Source: a virus
IMG/VR virus record: IMGVR_UViG_3300023175_000222
Coordinates: 1-22,010 of that record
Strand: one strand, 5' to 3'
Length of the DNA: 22,010 bases
Both the position numbers and the translations under genes were made by a program. Below the pieces are notes generated by a model. That model was given only the letters and a program-made list of their open reading frames with translations, did not search any database and had not been told where the DNA came from. Positions 8,264 through 21,147 of this stretch are shown piece after piece (within the stretch, counting starts at the first letter, position 1; each line of letters begins with the position of its first letter).

Positions 8264-8707
8264 ATGAATAGAGCACATTTTAATACACTATCACCATATG
8301 CTGTTGGCTTTGATCGTATGATCGACAGAATTTTTGACCATCAAGATCAAGCAACAGGTTTCCCACCATTTAATATTGTAAAGAGAACGGATACTGACTT
8401 CCGAATTGAACTTGCGCTTGCAGGTTACAAGGAAGAAGACTTGGATATTCAATATCAAGAAAGTGTCTTGACTATTACTGGTGATAAGGACAAGTCAACT
8501 GATGATGAAGGATATATCCATCGTGGTATTTCTGGTCGTAAGTTCACTCGCAAATTTACGCTTGCGGATGACATTATTGTTCAAGATGCGGTTTTGGAAG
8601 ATGGTATGTTGACAATTCGTCTGGAAAGAATTATTCCAGAAGAGAAACGTCCACGTACTATTGGTATTAACACCAACATTCAAAAGTCTTTCCTTACAGA
8701 AGACTAA
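8264..8707 (+). CDS. hsp20: Small heat-shock protein, IbpA-like Hsp20
   Basis: Encodes 147 residues. The start (LSPYAVGFDRMIDRIF) is like bacterial IbpA/class A small heat-shock proteins, followed by an alpha-crystallin domain (about 37-130): PPFNIVK, FRIELALAGYKEEDLDI, LTITGDK, YIHRGISGRKFTRKFTLAD, LEDGMLTIRLER. Such proteins are ATP-independent holdases that keep unfolding proteins soluble; in phages they may protect virion assembly or replication proteins. AAGGAG lies 8 bases before the ATG. The gene is a single unit with its own dual promoter, a structured leader and a strong terminator. Confidence 0.95.
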   Translation: MNRAHFNTLSPYAVGFDRMIDRIFDHQDQATGFPPFNIVKRTDTDFRIELALAGYKEEDLDIQYQESVLTITGDKDKSTDDEGYIHRGISGRKFTRKFTLADDIIVQDAVLEDGMLTIRLERIIPEEKRPRTIGINTNIQKSFLTED

Positions 8708-8712
8708 TACTC

Positions 8713-8740
8713 AGAGGGTTCTTCGGAACCCTCTTTTTTT
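8713..8740 (+). terminator. Strong terminator after hsp20
   Basis: A 9-bp perfect stem (AGAGGGTTC with GAACCCTCT), a UUCG tetraloop at 8722-8725 and a T run to 8740: a textbook intrinsic terminator. Confidence 0.95.
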
Positions 8741-8748
8741 GTTACATG

Positions 8749-8777
8749 GGCACGAGGTAAAGTCGTGTCTTTTTTTT
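8749..8777 (+). terminator. Second, tandem terminator ahead of the PiT-like gene
   Basis: GGCACGA (8749-8755) pairs with TCGTGTC (8763-8769; one G-U pair) around a 7-base loop and is followed by eight T (8770-8777). It lies between the hsp20 terminator and the transporter gene, with no clear promoter in the remaining 45 bases. Confidence 0.8.
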
Positions 8778-8787
8778 GTATGTAAGC

Positions 8788-8804
8788 AACGATGTAAAGT
8801 CGTT
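8788..8804 (+). repeat. Repeated hairpin core in the PiT-like leader
   Basis: AACGA (8788-8792) pairs with TCGTT (8800-8804) around TGTAAAG. The core repeats the hairpin just upstream: ACGAGGTAAAGTCGT (8752-8766) and ACGATGTAAAGTCGT (8789-8803) differ at one base. The arms can pair within or between copies, so alternative folds are possible. Confidence 0.6.
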
Positions 8805-8822
8805 AAACATAAGGAGAAGTAG

Positions 8823-9785
8823 ATGGAACTACTAACTTTATGGAGCCTTGTTGGGTTCCTACTGGCTGCGTATGCGGTCATTGCCAATGATTCAGTACAA
8901 ACTCTCGGTACTTGGATGGCATCAAATAATGAGAGATTTAACTATAAAACACTTTGGATTGCCGCCTCGGCAGTTCTACTTGCGACACTCTGGTATGGTT
9001 GGAGTGTCAACGGAGGCGACATCTCATATGGTCGTCTAAACAAGATACCATGGCAAGAAGTTCAGTGGTATCACGCTGCAGCACCTGCAATTCTAGTTGC
9101 ACTTACTCGTATCGGTGTCCCAGTATCAACATCCTTCCTAGTATTATCTGTATTCGCTTCGACATTTGTGTTGGAGAAAATGTTGATGAAATCAATTATG
9201 GGATATGGTGTTGCCGCCGCCTTTGCTTATGCGGTGTGGTTTGCAATCAATAAGTTTGCACACAAATGGTTCGACGAAACTCAACCAGTTAGTGAGGGCA
9301 ATAAAAAGTTCTGGCTAATTGCTCAGTGGGTTGCAACAGGTGGATTGTGGTGGACTTGGTTGTCACATGACATGGCAAACATCGCAGTGTTCTTACCACG
9401 TCAAGTCCCAGTAGATCTGATGATACTCATTTCATTTGTATTTGTTGCAGGACTGTTCTTCATGTTCAGAGAACGTGGGGGTAAGATTCAACAAATTGTT
9501 TTAGAGAAACACAACACACGATATGTTCGTTCAGCGACATTGATTGACTTGTTCTATTGGTTGTGTTTGTACTTCTTCAAGGAACTGAATGATATTCCCA
9601 TGTCGACAACATGGGTCTTCGTTGGTCTACTTGCAGGACGTGAACTTGCAATGGCAACATACTTCGGTAAAAAGAAAACCAAATCTGTATTCCCATTGGT
9701 TGCAAAGGATTTTGGTAAAATGATGGTAGGACTTGGAGCATCAGTCGCATTGGTTTTATTTGTTCATTATATTATTAATCCTTGA
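8823..9785 (+). CDS. PiT/PHO4-family phosphate-transporter-like membrane protein
   Basis: Encodes 320 mostly hydrophobic residues with roughly eight to ten membrane helices. PiT carriers have two related halves, each with a G-x-N-D-x-A-N loop and a P-V-S-T-T loop. Here both halves are seen: AND at 21-23 with LGT following, PVSTS at 100-104; then SHDMAN at 181-186 and PMSTTW at 259-264. The first Gly and some other family residues are changed, so it may carry another anion or be altered in activity. Inorganic phosphate uptake coupled to Na+ or H+ would feed phage DNA synthesis in phosphate-poor seawater (inference). AAGGAG (8811-8816) precedes the ATG. Two tandem terminators and a repeated hairpin lie upstream and no Pho box was found. 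Confidence 0.75.
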   Translation: MELLTLWSLVGFLLAAYAVIANDSVQTLGTWMASNNERFNYKTLWIAASAVLLATLWYGWSVNGGDISYGRLNKIPWQEVQWYHAAAPAILVALTRIGVPVSTSFLVLSVFASTFVLEKMLMKSIMGYGVAAAFAYAVWFAINKFAHKWFDETQPVSEGNKKFWLIAQWVATGGLWWTWLSHDMANIAVFLPRQVPVDLMILISFVFVAGLFFMFRERGGKIQQIVLEKHNTRYVRSATLIDLFYWLCLYFFKELNDIPMSTTWVFVGLLAGRELAMATYFGKKKTKSVFPLVAKDFGKMMVGLGASVALVLFVHYIINP

Positions 9786-9812
9786 CTTCTAACTGAAGAT
9801 ATGATATAAATA
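9783..9812 (+). promoter_or_regulatory. T4 late promoter with sigma70-like -35, before the helical gene pair
   Basis: An exact TATAAATA lies at 9805-9812. TTGACT at 9783-9788 is 16 bases upstream of TATAAA, so host-type recognition is also possible, as at the hsp20 promoter. Predicted start near 9818. Confidence 0.75.
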
Positions 9813-9820
9813 TACTCTGT

Positions 9821-9845
9821 AGCGCATAAAACAAAAATATGCGCT
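9821..9845 (+). promoter_or_regulatory. 5'-terminal mRNA hairpin
   Basis: AGCGCAT (9821-9827) pairs perfectly with ATGCGCT (9839-9845) around an A-rich loop, a few bases after the predicted start. The rest of the leader (ACACACACAAACAC then AGGAG) is unstructured. Probably protects the mRNA 5' end, as at the hsp20 unit. Confidence 0.6.
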
Positions 9846-9881
9846 GCATCGTATAAACACACACAAACACAGGAGAAGATT

Positions 9882-10094
9882 ATGTTTTCAACAGACTATT
9901 TGTCGAACGTATGGATCGACGCAGTACAAAACGCAAAAACAACTTGGGTAAACACTTGGGTTAAAGATGAAGCAATGAGTGCGCCTCTGCACGAGTTCAT
10001 CAAATTGCAAACAGAATTCACAAAAGAAGCAATGAAACATACCACTGCATTTTCTAATGCAGCAGGTTCAGCTATGGCGAAGATGGTAAAATGA
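9882..10094 (+). CDS. Small helical, phasin-like protein
   Basis: Encodes 70 residues with AGGAG upstream at about 9870. It is predicted to be nearly all amphipathic helix: WIDAVQNAKTTWVNTWVKDE, then FIKLQTEFTKEAMKHTTAF and an Ala/Gly-rich end. Spacing of Trp, Phe and Ala resembles short phasin or helical-bundle proteins that coat polymer granules, but homology is only suggestive. It is the first gene of a late unit and is coupled to the next by an ATGATG overlap. Abundant late expression is implied by the promoter, 5' hairpin and good ribosome site. Confidence 0.6.
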   Translation: MFSTDYLSNVWIDAVQNAKTTWVNTWVKDEAMSAPLHEFIKLQTEFTKEAMKHTTAFSNAAGSAMAKMVK

Positions 10095-10315
10095 TGGCGA
10101 ATAAAAACCCTTTTGAAATTAGATCTGAAATGTTACAACTTGCAAAAGACTATATGGATCAACAGTATCACATGAACCGTGAGTTTACGGAAAAAATGTT
10201 TGAAGCGGGTAAAGTTGCAATGGAAGAATATAAAGAAGCAACTAAAATGTATTCCATGGAAGAACTAATGGAAAAAGCAAAGGAAATGTATAGTTTCGTT
10301 TCTAAAAAAGAATAA
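10091..10315 (+). CDS. Conserved small helical protein of T4-like marine phages
   Basis: Encodes 74 residues (73 from the second ATG at 10094). The pattern NPFEIRSEMLQLAKDYMDQQY, then a variable charged helix, then MYSMEELMEKAKEMYSFVSKK fits a family I recall from T4-like cyanophages, function unknown. Strongly helical and charged, no membrane segment. It shares transcription and coupled translation with the phasin-like gene and is followed by a strong terminator. Confidence 0.7.
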   Translation: MMANKNPFEIRSEMLQLAKDYMDQQYHMNREFTEKMFEAGKVAMEEYKEATKMYSMEELMEKAKEMYSFVSKKE

Positions 10316-10318
10316 ATC

Positions 10319-10345
10319 AAAGGGGATCTTCGGATCCCCTTTTTT
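10319..10345 (+). terminator. Strong terminator after the helical gene pair
   Basis: AAAGGGGATC pairs with GATCCCCTTT around a UUCG tetraloop (10329-10332), and T runs on to 10345. Same design as the hsp20 terminator. Confidence 0.95.
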
Positions 10346-10392
10346 CTTGCGTTATGTTGTCACTATTGCGTTTTTCGCATAACAGGTTTCTC

Positions 10393-10419
10393 AAATTGGT
10401 CACCCTTACTGACCAATTT
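10393..10419. repeat. 10-bp perfect inverted repeat
   Basis: AAATTGGTCA (10393-10402) and TGACCAATTT (10410-10419) flank CCCTTAC. There is no T tract beyond the arm, so it is not a clear terminator on this strand; an operator, a processing site or a weak bidirectional terminator are possible. A second looser repeat, GTTATG (10351-10356) with CATAAC (10378-10383), precedes it. Confidence 0.55.
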
Positions 10420-10424
10420 CTGTA

Positions 10425-10432
10425 CTAAATAA
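10425..10432 (+). promoter_or_regulatory. Weak late-promoter-like element before DUF1127
   Basis: CTAAATAA keeps the TAAATA core of the T4 late element but not its first bases. It lies just downstream of the inverted repeat and about 20 bases before the leader ORF, the right place for a promoter, but the match is imperfect. Confidence 0.35.
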
Positions 10433-10450
10433 ATGTGTATAAGGAGTAAA

Positions 10451-10501
10451 ATGCAGACGGTGTTCTGCGCTCGGATCACATCATACATTTATCACATTTA
10501 G
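10451..10501 (+). CDS. Candidate 16-codon leader peptide
   Basis: AAGGAG (10441-10446) is followed by four bases and an ATG that opens the frame MQTVFCARITSYIYHI, ending at TAG 10499-10501. The stop codon is part of the TAGGAG ribosome site of the DUF1127 gene, so ribosomes terminating here would sit on the next initiation site. A short hairpin, GCAGA (10453-10457) with TCTGC (10464-10468), lies inside. This could be a regulatory leader or a translational coupling device. No family is recognisable at this length and the frame could be chance. Confidence 0.4.
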   Translation: MQTVFCARITSYIYHI

Positions 10502-10511
10502 GAGAAAACAG

Positions 10512-10757
10512 ATGACACACGTTGTACTGTCAGTAACAAGCATGTTTAACGCATGGCAAGAAGGTGTTTATTCCTTCATCAAAGAAGTCGCAGTCAAATA
10601 TAAGGCTCGTAGACTTGCAAAAGAAACAATCAATCAACTACAAGGTCTAAATGATCGTGAACTCGCAGACATGGGTTTGCATCGTGGAATGATTCGTCAA
10701 CTTGCAGAAGAACATTATCAAGCAGAAGTAAACAAAAACCTGAACGGATGGGTATAA
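10512..10757 (+). CDS. DUF1127 (YjiS-like) protein
   Basis: Encodes 81 residues. The second half, LQGLNDRELADMGLHRGMIRQLAEE (about 43-67), is the DUF1127 signature (L-x-x-L-x-D-R-x-L-x-D-x-G-x-x-R), preceded by an Arg/Lys-rich helix. DUF1127 proteins are small, basic and common in alphaproteobacteria, where some bind RNA or affect phosphate and carbon metabolism; the role of a phage copy is open. The ribosome site is TAGGAG, overlapping the leader ORF stop. The end overlaps the following small gene. Confidence 0.85.
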   Translation: MTHVVLSVTSMFNAWQEGVYSFIKEVAVKYKARRLAKETINQLQGLNDRELADMGLHRGMIRQLAEEHYQAEVNKNLNGWV

Positions 10758-10936
10758 CAATGGACGCAGTAATGAAATACACATTCGCACCACTATCAGG
10801 ATTTTGGTCAGGGTTCAGCAATTTTTGTGAAGTCGCTGGATACGCACGTGCAGCTTCGCACTTGTCGTCACTAGGATATTACGAAGAAGCAAAACATTGC
10901 ATGATGCAAGTAAATAAATTGAGATCTCGCAAATAA
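10748..10936 (+). CDS. Small partner of the DUF1127 protein
   Basis: Encodes 62 residues from the ATG at 10748 (overlapping the DUF1127 end by 10 bases) or 58 from the ATG at 10760. The segment EVAGYARAASHLSSLGYYEEAKHCMMQVNKLR resembles helical Y-x-R-A-x-x-x-L-x-x-x-G-x-x-x-E-A segments near DUF1127 proteins in alphaproteobacteria, so the two may act together (inference). No signal peptide; the N-terminal part is aromatic and could touch the membrane. Confidence 0.65.
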   Translation: MGITMDAVMKYTFAPLSGFWSGFSNFCEVAGYARAASHLSSLGYYEEAKHCMMQVNKLRSRK

Positions 10937-10983: not shown

Positions 10984-11496
10984 GTGTCCGATGTTCTGGT
11001 ACTTAATGCAGACGGTCAACCTATAAACTTTTTACCTCTAAGTACTATCAAATGGAAAGACGCAATCACCTACATGTGGATGGATAAGGTGCATGTCTTA
11101 GACTGGTACGACGACTGGATGGTTCGAAGTCCCAGTTGGGAAACCAAGGTCCCCGCCGTAATCATGATGAAAGAAATGATGCGGAAGAAGGGTAGACCTC
11201 GGTTTTCCAAGACGAACCTTTATATTCGAGACATGTACACTTGTCAATATTGTTTCGAACGGTTTCCACGGAGTTACCTTACTTTAGATCATGTACTCCC
11301 CATATCCAAAGGTGGGAAAACACATTGGGAAAACATCGTCGCCGCATGTGGACCCTGTAATACCAAAAAAGGCGACAAACTTATCTCCCCCAAAATTAAA
11401 CCACACGAACCAGGCTACTACGAACTGGTACGCAAAAAGAAACAGATCGACAATGTCGAACTGAAACATCCTAGTTGGGAAATGTATTTGGGTTAG
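10984..11496 (+). CDS. HNH endonuclease
   Basis: Encodes 170 residues from a GTG start, with AGGAG six bases upstream. Residues 87-90 (CQYC) and 122-125 (CGPC) bind the structural zinc; DH at 102-103, N117 and N126 fit the HNH core (LTLDHVLPISKGG ... WENIVAACGPCNTKKG). The N-terminal part (VLNADGQPINFLPLSTIKWKDAI ... VRSPSWE) is of a type I know from free-standing HNH proteins of alphaproteobacteria, so it may come from a host. It probably nicks or cuts DNA, as a homing-type or packaging-related enzyme; the target is unknown. Its stop overlaps the convergent tape measure stop within TTAG. Confidence 0.9.
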   Translation: MSDVLVLNADGQPINFLPLSTIKWKDAITYMWMDKVHVLDWYDDWMVRSPSWETKVPAVIMMKEMMRKKGRPRFSKTNLYIRDMYTCQYCFERFPRSYLTLDHVLPISKGGKTHWENIVAACGPCNTKKGDKLISPKIKPHEPGYYELVRKKKQIDNVELKHPSWEMYLG

Positions 11497-13319
11497 TTTG
11501 GTAGTGCGAGAGGATTGGTGTCTCCACCACCTCCCCCGATGTACTTAACATCTGCGATATTCTGGTCACCCATTCTGGTTGTCTGGTTAGTGACATAGTT
11601 ATCGCCACCCATCTTACCAATAACAACAGACATTCCACTACCGTTCATACCAGACTGTTCTACTGCATTTACTATTTCTGAACTGAGTGTAGACAATCTT
11701 CTTGGGGTGTAATCTTCATTAAAGAAGTTCTTTACAAACTGTCCTGCAGCGGTGTCTTCAGGGATAACTGCTTCTCTACCATGTAGAATTGCAAGTTGAC
11801 CACTACCGAAATTTCTGAAACCTCTTGTACCATATCTAAATCCATAATCCTCTTGTAGACTTTGCATAAAGTCTACAATATTGTCATTAAAGAATAGTCT
11901 TGCTTCATTAGCGCCAAATCCTGTCATAGATTCTAATTGTGTTCTGATTTCAGGAAATGCTGAATTTAGTGCTTGTAGATTTGCTAACGCTTGTTCTCGT
12001 TGTTCTTGGGTTGATTCTTCATTGTCAATAATATCAGCCATGTTTTCCATGAATGCCATCATCGATTCCTGAACCATTGCATTGTCTGGGTTATCTTTAT
12101 AACCCTGTACAATTCTTGCAAGGTCGCCACTTGCAGCAATTCTTTCACCTAGTGATACGGCTACTTCTGCGCCGTCTAATGCACCAACACCACCAACTGC
12201 ACCCAGATCCAGTCCACCAGTCGCACCACCTGTTGCGACTTCTGTTGCTTCAAAAGGATCAAGAGCAGCGATTTCCGCACGTGCTTGTGCTTGTGCTGCA
12301 GCTTTTGAGTCTTGGAACCAATTATAAAGAGATTTACCTATTACATACGCAACACCAACGGCTGCACCCACAAGCGCACCAGTTGGACCAAACATTGCAC
12401 CTAGTGTTGCAAATTGACCAATCGTTATTGTGCTATCTACTGCAACGCCTGCCCAATCTTCTGGAACGCCTTGTTCCGTTAACCAGTTTTTAACATCTTC
12501 ACCGTAGTAAGCAAGTGCGCCTGTTAGGATACCCAATGCGCCCGCACGTGCGACATTACGTAGTTTGAAAAGTCCACGGCCGCCGCCCCTTTGGTTTGGA
12601 CCTCTTGGATCTCCACCTGTACCTAATACACCAGAGATAATACCTTGGGTCACGCCACGTGCAAGTGCGCCTCCACCAAACCCACTCATAATACCTGCTG
12701 CAGTTAGTCCTGCACCTGCGAGAATGACAGTAAGAGGGTCTGACAGAAATTCGACAATTGAAGTAACTGCTTCTGGTACTTTTGATGCAAATTCTTTAAA
12801 AGATGTTCCTAACGCAGACCAGTCTACCTCTCGGAAGGTTGTGATCATACTATCTTCGAATCTACTAAAACCACCACCAGTCGCTTCGTCGATTGCACCT
12901 TTTGCAAAGTTATATGCAACAAATAGTCCTGCGCCACCAAGTGCAAGTTTTGTTCCTATTCCAAGTAACGTTGATGCAAACCCACCCATCATCTCAAAAA
13001 GACCTTTACTTTCTTTAGTAGGTTTTTCTGGTGTTGTTGTTTCTGGTTCTGGTGTGGGTGTTGGTTCGGGTGGTTGTTGAAGTTCTGCGAGATCGTTTGC
13101 ACGTTTTTGTGCCTCAATCGCCTCTTCTTGAATACCCATAGAAGCACGTAACATATCAGTTTGTTCAGTTATGTTTGCAGAAATCGTATTGAATACACCT
13201 TCGAACTTTTCAAGTTGCACTTTGACAGAACGAATTGAGTGACTACCGCTATTGCGGGTCAACTGTCCTTCTGCTTTTAGACGTTCAATAATCGCTTCTG
13301 TTTCTTTACTGATAGCCAT
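11493..13319 (-). CDS. 29: Tail tape measure protein / tail length determinant (gp29-like)
   Basis: Encodes 608 residues, near T4 gp29 (590). The N-terminus is a charged helix, followed by a Pro/Thr/Glu-rich linker (about 81-103), then Gly/Ala-rich hydrophobic segments (e.g. LLGIGTKLALGGAGLFVAY, VILAGAGLTAAGIMSGFGGG, LGAMFGPTGALVGAAVGVAY) typical of tape measure proteins that may enter the host membrane, and a C-terminal GSGQLAILHGREAVIPED motif common in tape measures. At about 0.15 nm per residue it predicts a tail near 90 nm. It lies last in the minus-strand unit, directly after the gp26/gp51-like pair, where tail assembly chaperones usually precede the tape measure. Confidence 0.8.
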   Translation of the reverse strand: MAISKETEAIIERLKAEGQLTRNSGSHSIRSVKVQLEKFEGVFNTISANITEQTDMLRASMGIQEEAIEAQKRANDLAELQQPPEPTPTPEPETTTPEKPTKESKGLFEMMGGFASTLLGIGTKLALGGAGLFVAYNFAKGAIDEATGGGFSRFEDSMITTFREVDWSALGTSFKEFASKVPEAVTSIVEFLSDPLTVILAGAGLTAAGIMSGFGGGALARGVTQGIISGVLGTGGDPRGPNQRGGGRGLFKLRNVARAGALGILTGALAYYGEDVKNWLTEQGVPEDWAGVAVDSTITIGQFATLGAMFGPTGALVGAAVGVAYVIGKSLYNWFQDSKAAAQAQARAEIAALDPFEATEVATGGATGGLDLGAVGGVGALDGAEVAVSLGERIAASGDLARIVQGYKDNPDNAMVQESMMAFMENMADIIDNEESTQEQREQALANLQALNSAFPEIRTQLESMTGFGANEARLFFNDNIVDFMQSLQEDYGFRYGTRGFRNFGSGQLAILHGREAVIPEDTAAGQFVKNFFNEDYTPRRLSTLSSEIVNAVEQSGMNGSGMSVVIGKMGGDNYVTNQTTRMGDQNIADVKYIGGGGGDTNPLALPN

Positions 13320-13496
13320 TTATTTTCTCTTCTGCGCTTCTTCTTTTTGTTTTTCCAAGAACTGTATCAACATAGCAAAATATAAATCTCTTTCAAACGG
13401 CATCAAATTTTCTATATCTGATATTGAGTATTTATGATGCTGCACCAGTGAAAACACAATCTGATAGTAATCTTTCAGACTCAGATGGCACAGCAT
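13320..13496 (-). CDS. 51: gp51-like baseplate hub assembly protein / tail chaperone second part
   Basis: A 58-codon frame starts at the ATG overlapping the gp26-like stop (TAATG) and ends one base before the tape measure start. The product (YYQIVFSLVQHHKYSISDIENLMPF in two halves around residue 20; ERDLYFAMLIQFLEKQKEE after) resembles short gp51 proteins of marine T4-like phages and also the second domain of tail assembly chaperones (I-x-x-(I/L)-E-x-(M/L)-P-F-x-x-x-x-Y). It can be reached by -1 slippage at U UUU UUC at the end of gp26, giving a fused protein of about 292 residues. T4 gp51 itself is much longer (249), so the name is by position and pattern. Confidence 0.65.
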   Translation of the reverse strand: MLCHLSLKDYYQIVFSLVQHHKYSISDIENLMPFERDLYFAMLIQFLEKQKEEAQKRK

Positions 13497-13508
13497 TAGA
13501 CGAAAAAA
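13437..13508 (-). promoter_or_regulatory. Candidate -1 ribosomal frameshift signal
   Basis: On the minus strand the gp26-like frame ends AGT TTT TTC GTC TAA; T TTT TTC (13508-13502) is an in-phase X XXY YYZ heptamer. After a 5-base spacer, ATGCTGTGCCA (13496-13486) can pair with TGGTGCAGCAT (13447-13437), 11 continuous pairs with two G-U. An inner stem, ATCTGA with TCAGAT, is also possible. Slippage leads into the 58-codon frame. Confidence 0.65.
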
Positions 13509-14197
13509 CTTCGTAATCCTTCAATGACAAAGGTTTTATCATCACCATTAGAGTTCTTGTATTTCATTTCATGACGAAGTTTTGGCATGGTTTCAAAAAA
13601 CTTTTGAATAGACTGCATAACATCACCAGTCATATTGTTCATGAATTCATCGATATCATCTTGACTATAGTCTTTAAAACTATAAGTGTCGTTTTCAGAT
13701 GCCAACTGATCAAGACAAGATGTCATGATGTGATAGTTTGCAAGAGGATCGTTGGGATCCATCATGATAATTCTTTGGAACTCATCAATTGTGGGGTATT
13801 TCAAAAACAAAGTGAACTCTTCGTTGACTTTAACCTTCTTGCTATGATCCTTATCTTTGACGATAGACACATCATCAATATTAAGTTCTAGTTCTACTGT
13901 TTCTTCAGTGTCTGGATCTTTGATCATAAATTTAATTTGGTTGTCCACAGACTTTGCACGGATAACCATCATGACATATTCCAAGTCAAACATTGCTAGT
14001 TTGGATACATCTGTTTTTACTAGACAGTTCTGTACGACTTGTTTGGCTGCAATGAGTTCTTGTTCACGGTCATTAGATTCTTGTGCAACCAAAAGAATCT
14101 TTTCTTCCTTGACCGTAAAGGGTCTGTATTTGATTTTTCTACCAGATGATGGAAGTTTCAATTCAAAAATAGGTAGATCAATTTTAGGTAAAGACAT
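13496..14197 (-). CDS. 26: Baseplate hub subunit, gp26-like
   Basis: Encodes 233 residues (T4 gp26: 208). The start LPKIDLPIFELKLPSSGRKIKYRPFTVKEEKILL is the pattern of the T4 gp26 family in marine phages, followed by a helical region and a strand-rich part (KFMIKDPDTEETVELELN). AGGAG stands upstream of the ATG on the minus strand. In T4 gp26 is a hub assembly protein; its place just before the tape measure, with a possible frameshift into the next frame, also fits a tail assembly chaperone (lambda G-like). It ends ...RSFFV just past a slippery heptamer. Confidence 0.8.
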   Translation of the reverse strand: MSLPKIDLPIFELKLPSSGRKIKYRPFTVKEEKILLVAQESNDREQELIAAKQVVQNCLVKTDVSKLAMFDLEYVMMVIRAKSVDNQIKFMIKDPDTEETVELELNIDDVSIVKDKDHSKKVKVNEEFTLFLKYPTIDEFQRIIMMDPNDPLANYHIMTSCLDQLASENDTYSFKDYSQDDIDEFMNNMTGDVMQSIQKFFETMPKLRHEMKYKNSNGDDKTFVIEGLRSFFV

Positions 14198-14212
14198 AAT
14201 ATAGTTCTCCTG

Positions 14213-14983
14213 TTAAATTCCTATACTTCGTGTTAGGTTATTAAATGAGTTGTTTAAACGTTGGAAGTTGTTTACTGTATCTTGAATACTGTCACCAAGG
14301 AAACCTTGGTTGACTGTTTGTTGTACCACCCCTGCAAATCCTGCAACTGCACCAAGGATGTCGAAGAAACCAGCCCCACGTCCTAGTCTTGAAGTTGGTG
14401 ATCCTGCTCTGAGACCAGAGTATTCAATTCTATCATATGAGAACTGAACAGGAAGTGTAAGGTAGGAGTCATTAGATTCCCATGCAAGATCCAAATCACC
14501 AATCTGACTTGGCCATGCTTTATCTAAAATGACTTCATAATATCTACTTGGATCTTGATCTGTCGAAAAGTGTTTAATACTGATACGACAAGAATATTCA
14601 TCTTTGTAACCAATTTCAAATGGAAGTTTACCATTGTCTTCTGATAAGTTACCCCCTGCAGTTCCAATGTTGATAACACTTTGCATCCATGAATGAAAGA
14701 ACCTCAATATCTGATGGTCGCTGTCAACCATGAAGATTGTGTTGACTGCAGTATTCTGTACACTCATTGGAAATTGTTTTGGTAGTGCAGCGACTGATTC
14801 ATAGTTTGCAACGTTTAGGGATACAGAAGGAATCTGTGCAGTCTTACAGAAGAACGTCAGATCCCTTGGTCCAATCACACTATTGACTGCAGATGGATAT
14901 CCTGTTATTGTAACTTGAAATAAGTTAGCGTGAGAAGGTCCCCCAAACTTATCAAATGTGGATTTAAATTCTGATATGCGCAT
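14213..14983 (-). CDS. 54: Tail-tube-fold baseplate protein, gp54-like tube initiator
   Basis: Encodes 256 residues. Segments NLFQVTI, then FFCKTAQIPSVSL, RFFHSWMQSV, then AWPSQIGDLDLAWESNDSYLTLPVQFSYDRIEY follow the tail tube fold order of T4 gp19 (NLFQVEI, FQCKATALP, and WPTNVGELQLDWDSNNEI). The extra C-terminal tail of about 65 residues (Gly/Ala-rich then Asn-rich helix) and the length differ from gp19 (163) and suit gp54, which caps the baseplate and starts tube growth. In T4 gene 54 follows 48 on the same strand; here they are on opposite strands. It could instead be a second tube protein. Confidence 0.7.
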   Translation of the reverse strand: MRISEFKSTFDKFGGPSHANLFQVTITGYPSAVNSVIGPRDLTFFCKTAQIPSVSLNVANYESVAALPKQFPMSVQNTAVNTIFMVDSDHQILRFFHSWMQSVINIGTAGGNLSEDNGKLPFEIGYKDEYSCRISIKHFSTDQDPSRYYEVILDKAWPSQIGDLDLAWESNDSYLTLPVQFSYDRIEYSGLRAGSPTSRLGRGAGFFDILGAVAGFAGVVQQTVNQGFLGDSIQDTVNNFQRLNNSFNNLTRSIGI

Positions 14984-15591
14984 TATCCGTTCCTTATGAT
15001 TCTACGAGAGTCTGAGTAGACCTTGTTCTTCGATGCACCCACGAAGTTCGCAGTTGGTAAAAATAAAGCTATGTCCCATTCTACAGGATTGACATAGAAA
15101 AATTTAGACCTTGTCTGACTATTCAGATAGTGTTTAATTGTTGGTTTAAACTCTTTGTATTTCGATGCCCCATTAAGTACTTTATACGAAAGTTTAAGTT
15201 TAGTTGTTTCATCATACTTATCGTTTGTCGTCAAATCATATAGTGCATCCATAAGTTTTGCACGTAAAATAGGTGGTAGGTAATGCATGTTAATACCCAT
15301 AAATCCTTTTGGTGCAGGACCAATGGGAAAGATCAAAGGAAACCTATCGTAATATGGAAGAGTCTTTTTGTGTTTTGCTTCATACGCAAAAAAGTACATA
15401 TTTCCATATGCAAGATTGTTGGATGATCTGTCTTTCAACTGAGTTTGAACTACCTCAGAGTTAATTGGTCCCTTCTTAACTGCCTTCTGCGCAGTATCTC
15501 TGTACCACTGTCGTGCAGAAGATTCACGTGCAGGAACTTGCCCTGAACGAATACCTCTAAGTAGAATGTCGTTAAAGAGGGTTGCTGCCAT
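14983..15591 (-). CDS. Conserved virion-region protein of unknown function (YYDRFPL family)
   Basis: Encodes 202 residues. The segment NMYFFAYEAKHKKTLPYYDR, then FPLIFPIGPAPKGFMGINMHYLPP in the order aromatic, PYYDRFPL, GxNxHYLPP, followed by RAKLMDALYD and a C-terminal ALFLPTANF, is well conserved in my memory of T4-like marine phages and some other large phages, always unnamed. Strong conservation and its place between gp4 and the tube initiator suggest a structural or assembly role, perhaps in neck or baseplate. It is coupled on both sides (start overlaps the upstream stop, stop overlaps the downstream start region). Confidence 0.7.
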   Translation of the reverse strand: MAATLFNDILLRGIRSGQVPARESSARQWYRDTAQKAVKKGPINSEVVQTQLKDRSSNNLAYGNMYFFAYEAKHKKTLPYYDRFPLIFPIGPAPKGFMGINMHYLPPILRAKLMDALYDLTTNDKYDETTKLKLSYKVLNGASKYKEFKPTIKHYLNSQTRSKFFYVNPVEWDIALFLPTANFVGASKNKVYSDSRRIIRNG

Positions 15592-15935
15592 TATTCTGTC
15601 TCACATGTACAGGGTTCGTTAAAACACTGACCACACACCCATTCCTTCATCAACTTCTTGATGGTTGCGAGTGCCTTCTTACCGTCTGGGTGATTGGGGT
15701 TGACACTCACTTCATCACCGTTCACGAAGTCAGAGATGTTTGCAGACTTACCCAACGCATTAATTGCCTTGTGCAGTGGATCTTTAGGATCGTACTTTCT
15801 TTCGAAGCCAGGTTTACCTCTAAGTTCAACCCACTTCTTATCGCCTTTGTTCCACATCTTCAGAACATCTTGATCTTTCCCACGAATGAGTTTCAGTTTG
15901 ATGCCTTCTGATATGAATGTTGTATACGACTTCAT
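15591..15935 (-). CDS. Small basic protein with C-terminal cysteine cluster, unknown
   Basis: Encodes 114 residues. The frame is open further upstream, but the ATG at 15935 overlaps the gp4 stop (TAATG) and gives MKSYTTFISEG, a beginning common among short T4-like phage proteins. The middle is basic and polar (KGDKKWVELRGKPGFERKYDPKDP). The end, CGQCFNEPCTC, holds four Cys in a CxxC-x5-CxC arrangement that could bind zinc. Function unknown; it is in the late structural unit, so a virion assembly role is possible. Confidence 0.65.
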   Translation of the reverse strand: MKSYTTFISEGIKLKLIRGKDQDVLKMWNKGDKKWVELRGKPGFERKYDPKDPLHKAINALGKSANISDFVNGDEVSVNPNHPDGKKALATIKKLMKEWVCGQCFNEPCTCETE

Positions 15936-16393
15936 TACTTTATCCCTAGTTCTTTTTCTGTCATGATGACAAACTCCCAACCACGTTTTGCACAGTACTC
16001 TCTTGCTGCTTTCCACTTTGCATCATTGATCCCCCAAGTCTTGACTTCGTTTAGAAATCTACGAGACACACGTCCTGTAGGAGTTGCGTTTTTCTTTCTA
16101 GGATCTGGTGGTAACGTTTGTTTGTATGGTTTTATTTCAACCACAACTGTCTTTAAGTTACCATCACGATCTTTTCTGTTCACAATAACATCAGGAAAAT
16201 ATCGATGAATATGATTGTCCACAGGTGATCTGTAGGGAATAATCAATTCTTCTGACTGCCACCAGTTTACATCTGGATGTTCATCACACCATTTAAAGAA
16301 TTTCAACTCCCATAAACTACGATATATGATGTTAGTTGGGTCGCCTTTATACTTTTTCGGATTCTTTGGACGGAATCTACCATTGTATGCCAT
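15935..16393 (-). CDS. 4: Head completion protein, gp4 (endonuclease-like fold)
   Basis: Encodes 152 residues (T4 gp4: about 150). The open frame begins earlier with TTG at 16432, but ATG at 16393 gives MAYNGRFRPKNPKKYKGD, matching the T4 start (MAYSGKWVPKN...KYRGD). YRSLWELKFFKWCDEHP, WQSEELIIPY, RRYFPDV-like and VVVEIKP follow the TnsA/PD-(D/E)XK-like fold expected for gp4, which joins the filled head to the tail in T4. It is the first gene of the minus-strand late unit, about 38 bases after the predicted transcript start. Confidence 0.9.
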   Translation of the reverse strand: MAYNGRFRPKNPKKYKGDPTNIIYRSLWELKFFKWCDEHPDVNWWQSEELIIPYRSPVDNHIHRYFPDVIVNRKDRDGNLKTVVVEIKPYKQTLPPDPRKKNATPTGRVSRRFLNEVKTWGINDAKWKAAREYCAKRGWEFVIMTEKELGIK

Positions 16394-16413
16394 AACCAAT
16401 TTCACTTTTTGTT

Positions 16414-16421
16414 TATAAATA
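16414..16421 (+). promoter_or_regulatory. T4 late promoter, rightward, for gp48 and baseplate genes
   Basis: Exact TATAAATA at 16414-16421; the start would be near 16427, about 30 bases before the gp48 ATG. It forms one arm of the 9-bp inverted repeat TTATAAATA / TATTTATAA. Confidence 0.85.
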
Positions 16422-16436
16422 GATTTACTCAATAGG

Positions 16437-16457: not shown

Positions 16458-17546
16458 ATGGCAGGAAGTAACAGACCAGAGGTTATGCGTCTCAAAGATT
16501 CATATGCCCGCAATCCAACATTGTTTTCCTTTCCTCAAAACAAAACGGGGCACTCTATTCTGTTCGTTTTCAAGGAATACGACTACAAAGGATACACTAG
16601 ATCAGAAAACAGTCCTTCTTTCTATTCTCAAAGAAGTCGTAATGTCGGAAGGGGTATTGGTCAAAGATCCAATGCGATCTCTTCAACCATTAGTGGGTTT
16701 GGTAGTATAGAACTCCCATTCCCTAAACAACTACAAGATAATACTTCTCTACGTATTAATGCGTTTGAACGTAATGCAATTACTGAAGCAGTTGTGAATG
16801 CAATGTCAAACCAAGGTGTATTCAACAATAATGCGGCGCTTGGTGAAACTCTTATGGCTAAAGCAGGCGAAGTTGCAGGACTTATCCAAGACGTAGGTGC
16901 AGGAGCAGTCAGTATGTTTACGGCGGAAGGACAATCCCAAGCAATGGGTGCTCTTACTTCAGGATTAGAAGGAATTATGAACACAGACACCGCTACTGCT
17001 ACTGCAGCAGCTGGATACTTAATGAGAACTCTCACTAGTAAACTCAGTGGAGACATGGCACGAACTATCGACATGGTAACAGGAACTGCAGTCAACCCTA
17101 AAGAAGCGCTTGCGTTTGAAGGTGTTGATTTAAAATCTCATTCTTTCACTTGGGAACTATACCCTTCTAATAGACAAGAGACAGAGACGATTAACAAGAT
17201 TACGAAACTGTTTAAGAGAAACGCACTACCAGAAACACAAGACTTGGTTGATGGTGTATTTGAACAAACGTTTTTGAAATATCCATCTACTGTAGAGATT
17301 AAACTAGTTGGAACAAATCCAGAGTATTTCCCAAGATACAAACCATGTATGATTAAATCAGTTAATATAAGTTACGAAAACTCTGCGGGTACTGTCCCAA
17401 TCATGCAAGGTGGTGTGCCTGGTTCTGTAACACTTTCTGTTGAACTTCAAGAAATGTCGGCACATAACCGTAATGATGTTGAAGAAGTTATTGGTGAACG
17501 TGATGTGGTAAGTGCACAAGCAAACCAACTACCAGCTGATTTCTAA
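16458..17546 (+). CDS. 48: Baseplate tail tube cap, gp48
   Basis: Encodes 362 residues (T4 gp48: 364). A Ser/Arg/Asn-rich N-terminal half with SSTISGFGSIELPFPK, an Ala/Gly-rich helical middle, and a tube-like C-terminal part (SFTWELYPSNRQETETINKI ... KYPSTVEIKLVG ... YKPCMIKSVNISYEN ... TLSVELQEMS) fit the gp48 architecture, in which a tube-fold domain caps the baseplate centre. The residues near the end resemble T4 gp48 (PCQIQSIRFDKTPNG, then TLEITMREI). First gene of the rightward late unit. Confidence 0.85.
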   Translation: MAGSNRPEVMRLKDSYARNPTLFSFPQNKTGHSILFVFKEYDYKGYTRSENSPSFYSQRSRNVGRGIGQRSNAISSTISGFGSIELPFPKQLQDNTSLRINAFERNAITEAVVNAMSNQGVFNNNAALGETLMAKAGEVAGLIQDVGAGAVSMFTAEGQSQAMGALTSGLEGIMNTDTATATAAAGYLMRTLTSKLSGDMARTIDMVTGTAVNPKEALAFEGVDLKSHSFTWELYPSNRQETETINKITKLFKRNALPETQDLVDGVFEQTFLKYPSTVEIKLVGTNPEYFPRYKPCMIKSVNISYENSAGTVPIMQGGVPGSVTLSVELQEMSAHNRNDVEEVIGERDVVSAQANQLPADF

Positions 17547-17557
17547 AAGGATAAGAT

Positions 17558-17935
17558 ATGGCGAAATATTTTGAAAACTTTCCAATCGTAGATTACAATG
17601 GTAAGAAAGTGAGAGACATTACTAGAAGAAACAATTTTCTTAAAAGTGTTTCTACCAATCCAATGTTGTATCTGCCATATACTGTCAAACAAAATGAACG
17701 TGCAGAGGATGTCGCACAGTTTTATTATGGGTCGGTAGATTATGTTTGGTTGGTATATATGGCCAATCAAATTATCGATCCTTATTACGAATGGCCTATG
17801 GACGAGGAAACCTTCAACAAATATCTCATTGCAAAATATGGGGAAGTTTCTGGTGAGACAGGAGATGATGTTGTCGATTGGACAAAAGAAGAAGGTAACG
17901 ATGAAAATATCGTTTACTACTATAAGGAAGTATAA
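17558..17935 (+). CDS. 53: Baseplate wedge protein gp53, N-terminal part
   Basis: Encodes 125 residues. YFENFPIVDY, DITRR and the LysM-like segment VKQNERAEDVAQFYYGSVDY followed by VWLVYMANQIIDPYYEWPM are typical of gp53 (T4: 196 residues; PEELANAIYGNPQLYWVLLM...DPYYGW). The expected C-terminal N-Y-E-Y-E segment is missing and instead appears in the next ORF, in the same frame after TAA-GAT-ATG. Gp53 clamps the baseplate wedges together. The start has AAAAGG upstream and shares TAAGATATGGC with the start of the next ORF. Confidence 0.8.
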   Translation: MAKYFENFPIVDYNGKKVRDITRRNNFLKSVSTNPMLYLPYTVKQNERAEDVAQFYYGSVDYVWLVYMANQIIDPYYEWPMDEETFNKYLIAKYGEVSGETGDDVVDWTKEEGNDENIVYYYKEV

Positions 17936-17938
17936 GAT

Positions 17939-18196
17939 ATGGCAGTTGATCAGGTTATTCTTGCACCAGAATCATTTAGAACGATCTATCTAAGAAAAGA
18001 AGATCGTGTAATTCTTCGTACAGAACAGGGACGTAAGATTATTATTAAACGTATTATTCCTGATGAGTGGAAAGAATATCGTATCTACGAATATGAGAAA
18101 GATAGAAACGAAGCAAAGAAAGATATTTTTCTTTTTGATAATAGATTCTTACCACAGTTAACAAGGGAGTTCGTTGAATCTATTAGCGACGAATAA
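17939..18196 (+). CDS. 53: Second part of a split gp53 (C-terminal baseplate wedge segment)
   Basis: Encodes 85 residues. EYRIYEYEKDRNEAKKDIFLFDNRFLPQL... corresponds to the conserved gp53 ending (Y-E-Y-E-x3-N-x-x-K-R-x-I-x-L-L), and the two ORFs together (210 residues) match the normal gp53 length. They share one reading frame with a single TAA at 17933-17935 between them. AAGGAAG at about 17922-17928 offers a ribosome site for separate initiation. It may be a true split protein, a stop readthrough, or a sequence error; the independent ribosome site favours the first. Confidence 0.7.
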   Translation: MAVDQVILAPESFRTIYLRKEDRVILRTEQGRKIIIKRIIPDEWKEYRIYEYEKDRNEAKKDIFLFDNRFLPQLTREFVESISDE

Positions 18197-18199
18197 TAA

Positions 18200-19594
18200 A
18201 TGGCAGAATTTAACCCAACATACGCTGTTTGGAAAAATATTGTAGTAACTCCTCATGACGGAAACGCAGAAGAAGATATTACAAAACTTTGCACCAGACT
18301 TGACTTCACGCAGAGTATTAATTCTAGTGCGTGGACTGGTTCTATGCGCATTTTGGATTCTTCGGGTTTGTTGGAAGGAAAGGGGTTTAAACTTAGAGGA
18401 GAAGAAAAACTAACCTTCGAAGTGGAGACTTACGATGGTAAGATGGAAGATCCTCTTAAAATCACGGCACAAATTCTTAGTATCACAGAAGTCTCGCCAC
18501 TCGAAAACCTTTCTGGGGTAACATTCACGATAAACTTTATTTCCAAAATAAGTTATACTGCAGGTTTAAGAAGAGTACGTGAAGCGTTCGTTGATCTTCC
18601 AGCTTCTGAAATTGCAGAAAAGATCTTTAAAAAGTATTATGCAAACGGCAGACTTGTAGAGGACACAAGCGCTCCAAATGAAATCATTCCTTTCAATGCA
18701 AAGAAATTTAGAACAACCGATCTAGGTAGTAGACAAAGAAAACCTTTTTACATACAACCTACAGAGGGGGTGATGCAGTGCGTTATTCCCAATCTACCAC
18801 CCAGCGATGCAATGAATTTTCTTACACAAAGATCTTTCAGTCAAAGTTCGCCTTCTTGTTCCTTTAGATTTTTCGAAACTTTTACAGGTTATTGGTTTGT
18901 TACAGACGAATTTATGATTCAACATGGATTAGAAAATAATCAAACCATTGAAGAATTTTCTTACAACGTTCAAAACTCCCAAGACGGACAAGATGCAGAA
19001 GTGCAAGTGAAATCTTTTAAGGCTTTCAAAAACCCTTCACGTGTAAATACCGCAACTGATTTGCATAGTGGTGGTTATAGAAACAAAGTCATAGAAGTAG
19101 ATCTAGGAAGAAGACGTGCAAGAAACATCGATTATGATTACATTGAAGATGCAGACTACGTTGATATGTCTGGTCAAAAAACATCTTTGAGAAATGTACC
19201 TCATACAGAAGAATATATTAGAGAAACTTTTACAGATGAAAATGCACGTAGAATGCTTGTGTTCAAAGACTGGTATGATGAAAACGGACAAACACTAAGA
19301 TCTAATCAACACTATCCAGAAATTCTTCAAAACAGAAGTGTTTATACTCATCACTTAGGACAAACAATAGTTTCTGTTAGTTTGAATGCGTCAAGATTAG
19401 ATCTAAGGCCAGGCAAAATTATATCGGTAAGATTACCAAAGTTTACAATTGCTTCTACACCAGACTCACCTTATAATGACGAGTTGTCTGGTAATTATTT
19501 AATTGTATCTATATCACATTCTTTGCAAGACGATGTGATGACAACAAATGCGTCTCTTGCCAAGTATGGATGGAGTGGAGAATATAGACCATGA
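18200..19594 (+). CDS. 27: Baseplate hub protein, gp27-like
   Basis: Encodes 464 residues (T4 gp27: 391). The start has two related beta domains (DITKLCTRLDFTQSINSSAWTG; LTFEVETYDG ... ITAQILSITEV ... TFTINFIS), then a helical domain (PASEIAEKIFKKYY; SDAMNFLTQRSF), and a C-terminal beta domain (LDLRPGKIISVRLPKF ... SGNYLIVSISHSL) as in hub proteins of contractile tails. The order and its position directly before the gp5-like spike identify it; sequence similarity to T4 itself is low. The trimeric hub links the spike to the tube. It overlaps the next gene by ATGA. Confidence 0.75.
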   Translation: MAEFNPTYAVWKNIVVTPHDGNAEEDITKLCTRLDFTQSINSSAWTGSMRILDSSGLLEGKGFKLRGEEKLTFEVETYDGKMEDPLKITAQILSITEVSPLENLSGVTFTINFISKISYTAGLRRVREAFVDLPASEIAEKIFKKYYANGRLVEDTSAPNEIIPFNAKKFRTTDLGSRQRKPFYIQPTEGVMQCVIPNLPPSDAMNFLTQRSFSQSSPSCSFRFFETFTGYWFVTDEFMIQHGLENNQTIEEFSYNVQNSQDGQDAEVQVKSFKAFKNPSRVNTATDLHSGGYRNKVIEVDLGRRRARNIDYDYIEDADYVDMSGQKTSLRNVPHTEEYIRETFTDENARRMLVFKDWYDENGQTLRSNQHYPEILQNRSVYTHHLGQTIVSVSLNASRLDLRPGKIISVRLPKFTIASTPDSPYNDELSGNYLIVSISHSLQDDVMTTNASLAKYGWSGEYRP

Positions 19595-21147
19595 TGGAAT
19601 CGGGTATTGGCATAACTAACCCACTATTTTTTATTGGTGTGGTGGAAAACAACAGAGACCCTCACTTCGAAGGTCGTATCAAAGTTCGTGCGTTTGGTAT
19701 TCACGGTGACAACTCGGAGATCCCAACCCCAGAACTTCCATGGGCAATCTGTGCAAAGGGTGACTATGATCCAAACGGATCTGTGCCACCATTGAATTCA
19801 TTTGTATACGGAATGTTTTTGGACGGACGTGCAGCGCAACATCCACTTGTACTTGGACTTATTCCTTCACAATTTGCAGAACCCATCAACCCAGAACAAA
19901 ATGGATGGGGTGTCGTACCAGATTGTAACGGAGAACTACTAGCGCAGGGCGCAAGACCAGAAGATTTTGGACAACCACAAAACTCACGACTTGCACGTGG
20001 TGAAAACTTGGAAGAAACTTATGTTCTTCAACAAGAGATGAACCGTGTTGAAAATGTATATATTGCAGGTCAACAGGAAGTAGAACCAAACGAGGACGAA
20101 CAAATAACATGGAGTGAACCTAGTCCTGCATACGGTGCAAGGTATCCATACAACCGTGTCATATCAACTGCAAAACACTCAATTGAAATAGACGACACGC
20201 CAGGCGCAGAACGCATTATGATTTACCACAACGAAGGATCGTATGTGCAAATTGATTCACGTGGATCTACCACACACAAGTCTGTGGGCGACAAATACGA
20301 AATCAACGACAGACAACAACATGTGTATGTTGGTGGTCCAAGTATGGTTACGATCAATAGTGATGCATATGTCTATGTCAGAGGTAATAAAACTGAAGAG
20401 ATCGAAGGTGACTACAACATGATTGTACGTGGAAACGCACAGTTTGGTGTTGGTGGTTCCTTCTTTGTTAACGCAAGTGATCAGTTGCAAATGAGAGCCG
20501 CAGACGTGATGTTGGACGCAAACGTTTCCACATTAGAAATCTTTGGTAAAAAAGAAATCAAAATGACAACACCTATTGCGTTCTCTATGACTGCGAAGAA
20601 GATGTTCCAACACATAGGGGAAGAGTGGCACGGAAAGTCTGATGGATTTATCAAGTTTGAATCTACGGATGGTTTCTGGCAACAGTCAACAGACGCAGGT
20701 TTCAACTTCAAGGCTGCAGAGAATATCCAATTCCAAACAGACGAGACGTTCTCACTCAAAGCGGGGGATGCAGTTAATGTTGATCCAGGCAGTGGTATTA
20801 TCGATCTTGCAAGTGGATCTTCAGTAGAATCAGAAGCGGCAGAAGCAGAGGATGCGCAAATCGCAGAACAAACTCAGATGCCAGAACCACCCGCAAAGTC
20901 TACTGCGATTGTTAACTCTGAAATCGCATCAATGGATGCACCAGTATCTATGGCAACAGATGATAGTGCAGATCCATCTCATGAAGAAGAAGGTAGTAAC
21001 TACTTCGACAATATGGGTGTCGCACAATTAGAGAAAGAAAATCTAACGGTTGGGAATACATATAAGATAGGTAACACGAATTATACATTACAATCTAATC
21101 CAAGTGATCCAGAAGATTCTAGTCTTTGGTACTTTGAGGAACAATAA
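19591..21147 (+). CDS. 5: Central spike protein, gp5-like, without lysozyme domain
   Basis: Encodes 518 residues (T4 gp5: 575). Residues 12-95 form the OB-fold (FFIGVVENNRDPHFEGRIKVRAFGIHG ... WAICAKGDY, split here by a few residues), followed by a linker and a repetitive beta-helix region (about 210-400; repeated V/I-x-G/N strands such as YVQIDSRGSTTHKSVGDKYE, YVYVRGNKTEEIEGDYNMIV). In T4 gp5 a lysozyme domain sits between OB-fold and helix; no such domain or catalytic pattern is seen here. The last 100 residues are acidic and Ala/Ser-rich with a small terminal domain (VGNTYKIGNTNYTLQ). Confidence 0.8.
   Translation: MMESGIGITNPLFFIGVVENNRDPHFEGRIKVRAFGIHGDNSEIPTPELPWAICAKGDYDPNGSVPPLNSFVYGMFLDGRAAQHPLVLGLIPSQFAEPINPEQNGWGVVPDCNGELLAQGARPEDFGQPQNSRLARGENLEETYVLQQEMNRVENVYIAGQQEVEPNEDEQITWSEPSPAYGARYPYNRVISTAKHSIEIDDTPGAERIMIYHNEGSYVQIDSRGSTTHKSVGDKYEINDRQQHVYVGGPSMVTINSDAYVYVRGNKTEEIEGDYNMIVRGNAQFGVGGSFFVNASDQLQMRAADVMLDANVSTLEIFGKKEIKMTTPIAFSMTAKKMFQHIGEEWHGKSDGFIKFESTDGFWQQSTDAGFNFKAAENIQFQTDETFSLKAGDAVNVDPGSGIIDLASGSSVESEAAEAEDAQIAEQTQMPEPPAKSTAIVNSEIASMDAPVSMATDDSADPSHEEEGSNYFDNMGVAQLEKENLTVGNTYKIGNTNYTLQSNPSDPEDSSLWYFEEQ

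Follow-up and report, generated by a model that had tools for sequence, protein, structure and literature searches.

In phage lambda, the tail assembly chaperones G and GT are reportedly made by -1 frameshifting (Levin et al. 1993; Xu et al. 2004; cited in PMC12859696). The lambda slippery sequence is G GGA AAG. The locus described here lies in the window, i.e., the whole stretch of 22,010 nucleotides of DNA from a marine T4-like phage that was analyzed, and it resembles the lambda system in that a short and a long form would be made from one start, in that the -1 slip would occur near the end of the first frame, and in that the genes are located just upstream of the probable tape measure gene. 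It differs from lambda in the slippery sequence, which is U UUU UUY, in the families of the encoded proteins (PF12322 and phrog_634), and in the position of the fusion, which is at the very end of G.

The tail assembly chaperones of T4-like phages are the subject of Vladimirov, Gautam and Davidson (2022, Virology 566:9-15); according to its title, that paper concerns the same gene families as those analyzed here and stresses a mechanism other than frameshifting. In the available text of PMC10885494, Vladimirov et al. 2022 is cited for phages with a short gene and a separate long fused gene, a summary that fits T4 gp26 and gp51. In the available text of PMC12846349, poly-T slippery signals are stated to be known in TAC-N genes of T4-like phages, again citing Vladimirov et al. 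2022. Thus, the first-pass annotation of the window, which was inclined to regard frameshifting as undescribed for T4-like phages, is probably wrong on this point, and frameshifting in T4-like chaperone genes is probably not new in principle. The same part of PMC12846349 describes the TAC locus of phage Adele (Vandenendeviridae/Andersonviridae), which is similar to the present locus in having an extension in the -1 frame, a poly-T motif (GTTTTT) at the end of TAC-N, and a downstream ORF misannotated as a separate gene; it differs in belonging to other phage families, and a codon-controlled stem test is absent from this part of the account. In the open-access literature, i.e., with subscription journals outside the search, we found no paper that names frameshifting of gp26/gp51 in cyanophages or KVP40 and no report of a codon-controlled stem, of start-less gp51 genes, or of the scale of conservation. 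The additions of the present analysis are its breadth, the codon-controlled stem, the missing start codons, and the misannotated gp51 genes.

The gp26-like gene of the window (13496..14197, minus strand) encodes a G-type tail assembly chaperone of 233 aa as its zero-frame product and has the 3' end GGA TTA CGA AGT TTT TTC GTC TAA. The last base of AGT together with TTT TTC forms the slippery heptamer T TTT TTC (13502..13508, minus strand) in the zero-frame phase X XXY YYZ, and the in-phase U UUU UUC that had been noted before the gp26 stop is present. Slipping by -1 at this heptamer leads into a gp51-like T domain comprising 60 residues after the slip (13320..13502, minus strand). As annotation would draw it, the gp51-like ORF extends from 13496 to 13320 with 58 codons and a product of 58 aa, and it adjoins the ATG of the next gene at 13319, which confirms the frame that the first-pass annotation had proposed to be entered by the slip. 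Translation of the slip frame predicts a gp26-gp51 fusion of 292 aa, matching the earlier estimate of about 292 residues, and this product would share its N-terminus with the predicted 233-aa zero-frame product. Together with the comparative analyses described below, these features make us highly confident that a -1 programmed ribosomal frameshift makes both tail assembly chaperones, G (gp26) and GT (gp26-gp51), from one start site.

The gp26-like protein matched PF12322 (T4_baseplate; E 1.5e-54, 185.5 bits against a cut-off of 24.5) and phrog_150 (E 1.5e-61), and the gp51-like frame of the window matched phrog_634 (E 2e-23). A search of NCBIfam gave no match, and a PDB sequence search with gp26 gave no relevant match. 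Using an AlphaFold model of gp26 (pLDDT 86.6), the first of 350,542 PDB chains was the HK97 tail assembly chaperone 2ob9 as a weak match (E 0.28, TM 0.20/0.41), and the model also matched many T4-like baseplate hub proteins in BFVD. The model of the T domain is helical (pLDDT 82). PMC3004832 lists T4 gp26 and gp51 among the chaperones of hub assembly and gives T4 gp51 as required for assembly yet absent from the particle. The G/GT identity that had been proposed for the pair is supported by the weak HK97 match, by the T4 gp51 alignment described below, and by the title of Vladimirov et al. 2022; such an identity would bring the T4 hub chaperones gp26 and gp51 together with the G/GT chaperones found in other long-tailed phages.

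The chaperone pair is encoded between a tail tube protein gene upstream (14213..14983, minus strand; PF23849, 5.6e-12; phrog_45, 6e-34) and the gene placed as tape measure (11493..13319, minus strand). The first-pass annotation had located the tape measure gene directly downstream of gp51; the adjoining gene is there, and it is considered the probable tape measure gene by position, by the length of its product (608 aa), and by hydrophobic segments and composition. The 608-aa product had no family match in Pfam or PHROG profile searches, no profile alignment to T4 gp29, and no profile homology to the products of the downstream genes of the Cr30, phiM19, Melnitz, S-PM2, KVP40-like, and P-SSM2 phages. 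Because these profile comparisons found no homology, the tape-measure identity stays positional.

For the comparative analysis, loci were gathered by gp26 similarity regardless of the junction, and isolates were then added. The main set comprises 142 unique gp26/gp51 junctions outside the T4-even phages; an IMG/VR scan with gp26 of Aeromonas phage Ahp1 gave zero matches. The hosts of the isolates include Synechococcus, Prochlorococcus, Vibrio, Aeromonas, Stenotrophomonas, Pseudomonas, Rhizobium, Sinorhizobium, Caulobacter, Methylophilales, and Desulfovibrio. All of the untruncated loci of a first scan (79 of 79) have TTT TTY as the two Phe codons that precede the gp26 stop. In the main set, 140 of the 142 junctions have an in-phase UUUUUUY that ends 0, 3, or 6 nt ahead of this stop, and the gp51 domain is in the -1 frame in all 142; this domain matched phrog_634 (E 3e-24) in 89 of 89 members. 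Because 140 of 142 gp26 genes but only 2 of 585 other long ORFs in the same loci end this way, the heptamer is not explained by chance. The conservation of heptamer and phase that the first-pass annotation called for is, therefore, observed, and the same holds for a stem beyond coding (see below).

Phe-Phe is invariant in the gp26 alignment, as would be expected if the T run reflected a coding constraint on these two residues and the stem were a coding coincidence. We give this explanation practically no credence. The residue preceding Phe-Phe varies (Ser, Thr, Asp, Asn, Ala), and the third base of its codon, directly ahead of the Phe pair, is T in 140 of the 142 junctions, while codon usage predicts 83 (sd 5.8); this third-base excess of ~10 sd is, like the other significances reported here, an upper bound because the junctions are phylogenetically related. 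Moreover, T4-even phages retain similar aromatic residues but encode them by non-slippery codons, and the stem exceeds codon-controlled nulls.

Two junctions are exceptions to the conserved heptamer. In one locus (L043), the end of gp26 reads G TTT TTT, which resembles the GTTTTT of Vandenendeviridae/Andersonviridae chaperone genes. The other exception, Pseudomonas phage Cygsa01 (L088, 2238), is the only isolate that departs from the canonical heptamer; it reads C ATT TTC ACC TAATG and has no downstream structure (z +0.5); this phage may use coupling in place of frameshifting or an unusual slip site.

In the window, the heptamer is followed by the 5-nt spacer GTCTA (13497..13501, minus strand), a length within the range of about 5-9 nt expected for stimulatory structures at -1 sites, and then by a stem with the 5' arm ATGCTGTGCCA (13486..13496, minus strand) and the 3' arm TGGTGCAGCAT (13437..13447, minus strand). 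This outer stem has 11 pairs including two G-U pairs, and both the spacer and the stem were found as the first-pass annotation had described them. The RNA fold of the junction region has an energy of -24.8 kcal/mol (z -3.6), and 0 of 200 shuffles were as good. An inner 6-bp stem had also been proposed; the fold predicts a different inner helix of 7 bp, and the clade consensus contains no inner stem, while its outer stem is reduced to 7 core pairs. The inner 6-bp stem was, therefore, dropped as part of the signal because it is not conserved in relatives.

Both arms of the outer stem are supported by pairing and covariation in 56 unique relatives. As a null model, we permuted the codons of the -1 frame only within the same amino acid and the same alignment column. 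In the 56 relatives, stem pairing was 92.2% compared with 87.5% in codon-permuted sequences, with 0 of 2000 permutations reaching the observed value, and the mean MFE was -20.7 compared with -16.7 (z about -11). One stem pair occurs as U-A, A-U, U-G, and G-C across relatives. Per-sequence synonymous recoding gave a mean z of -2.8 with 100 of the 142 junctions below -2; for the clade of the window, the mean z was -3.6 (56/61 below -2), and for the remaining junctions, it was -2.2 (44/81 below -2). Thus, in the clade of the window, the stem is stronger than protein coding accounts for. In some lineages (P-SSM7, ACG-2014d, S-CREM1, and others), the heptamer is kept without a clear stem, and alifold on 37 mixed junctions gave no single consensus stem for all cyanophages, though many of these fold well singly.

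Upstream of the heptamer, at a distance of 8 nt, there is a putative SD-like stimulator, GAAGGA (13517..13522, minus strand). In relatives, the Glu-Gly codons at this position are enriched for GAG (Fisher p 1e-11) and GGA/GGG (3e-8) relative to the rest of gp26 in a comparison that ignores kinship. GAAGGA may stimulate slippage as in dnaX.

In the mechanism that we propose, most ribosomes would read gp26 to its stop and make G of 233 aa. A minority would pause where the stem begins, 5 nt after U UUU UUC, possibly with help from the SD-like GAAGGA, and the Phe tRNAs in the P- and A-sites would re-pair one base back on UUU UUU. Translation would then extend 60 codons further, across the gp51-like T domain, and give GT of 292 aa, and both proteins would work on the tape measure and the tail tube in the manner of lambda-type tails. 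The comparisons show the signal, its phase, its conservation beyond coding, the dependence of start-less relatives on it, and the homology of T4 gp51 to the fused form; that ribosomes slip in cells, how often they do so, and that the products serve as chaperones is inferred.

The gp26 stop of the window shares bases with an ATG (TAATG), and because of this overlap a separate gp51 is possible in this phage. Under translational coupling, ribosomes would terminate at the TAA of gp26 and reinitiate at the ATG that overlaps it, giving a separate gp51 of 58 aa, and the T run and the stem would merely tune the restart. This explanation is in agreement with the TAATG of the window, with the presence of an ATG at -20 to +8 of the stop in 68 of the 142 junctions, and with older GenBank records, which list gp51 as its own gene. 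However, 50 of the 142 junctions contain no ATG, GTG, or TTG in the gp51 frame at -20 to +8 of the stop, and the first start is often located 38 to 56 nt downstream within the conserved domain. Because these relatives have no start near the junction, coupling cannot replace frameshifting there; judging from these junctions, gp51 can only be completed via frameshifting in them. Coupling also leaves unexplained the phased T at 140 of the 142 junctions and the fused gp51 of T4, and we consider it very unlikely. The first-pass annotation had named relatives that keep TAATG and lose the heptamer or stem as evidence against frameshifting; the data contradict such a pattern, since in many relatives the ATG is gone and the heptamer is still there.

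Both the heptamer and a nearby ATG or GTG/TTG are found in the window and in roughly half of the relatives. In phages that keep the ATG, both routes could operate, so that some gp51 would be fused by frameshifting and some would be made as a free domain by restart. However, the start codon is not conserved and, therefore, the free domain is not generally required; we regard the use of both routes as possible but doubtful.

Returning to frameshifting as the preferred reading, in hundreds of genomes of cyanophages and their relatives, gp51 would usually be the tail end of a frameshift product and not a separate gene, which would be the reason why many GenBank records truncate or omit gp51. The GenBank annotation omits gp51 in ACG-2014e (L084), ACG-2014d (L092), and S-WAM1 (L104), and gp51 is N-terminally truncated in S-RSM4 (L082, 1249-1383) and P-SSM7 (L103, 2001-2096); in all five, the -1 frame is intact.

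The T4-even phages provide a comparison. As in the window, T4 gp26 is a homologue of G; in contrast to the window, T4 genes 26 and 51 are two separate and divergent genes, and the heptamer is absent from 10 of 10 T4-even gp26 genes, most of which read TTC TTT. An hhalign comparison (E 3.5e-17) aligned the gp51 family of T4-even phages with the predicted fusion over 237 columns that span the junction and reach into the T domain, and this family is also homologous to T4 gp26 (hhalign E 5.4e-17). The T domain of the window corresponds to the C-terminus of T4 gp51 in the alignment. Since gp51 is co-linear with the whole predicted fusion and homologous to gp26, T4 seems to carry G and GT as a pair of paralogous genes. 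We tentatively suggest, with slightly more doubt than conviction, that frameshifting is ancestral and near-universal for gp51 outside the T4-even phages, that T4-even phages lost it to a duplicated pre-fused copy and their Phe codons turned non-slippery, and that each lineage built its own stem inside the overlapping T-domain code. Frameshifting relatives and two-gene T4-even phages would offer a clean natural comparison for understanding why the ratio of the two products is kept.

The tail genes of the window are split by strand. The minus-strand region 11493-16432 includes the genes for head closure, end protector, tail tube, and the chaperone pair, and the plus-strand tail genes (16458-21147) include those for the tube cap (gp48-like) and a gp53-like baseplate protein. 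A host-like gene cluster on the plus strand (8264-10936) encodes an HSP20 protein, a DUF1127 protein (PF06568, 8e-11), and, all without a Pfam match, a 320-aa membrane protein and two small phasin-like proteins. Judging from the DUF1127 and phasin-like genes, the host may be an alphaproteobacterium.
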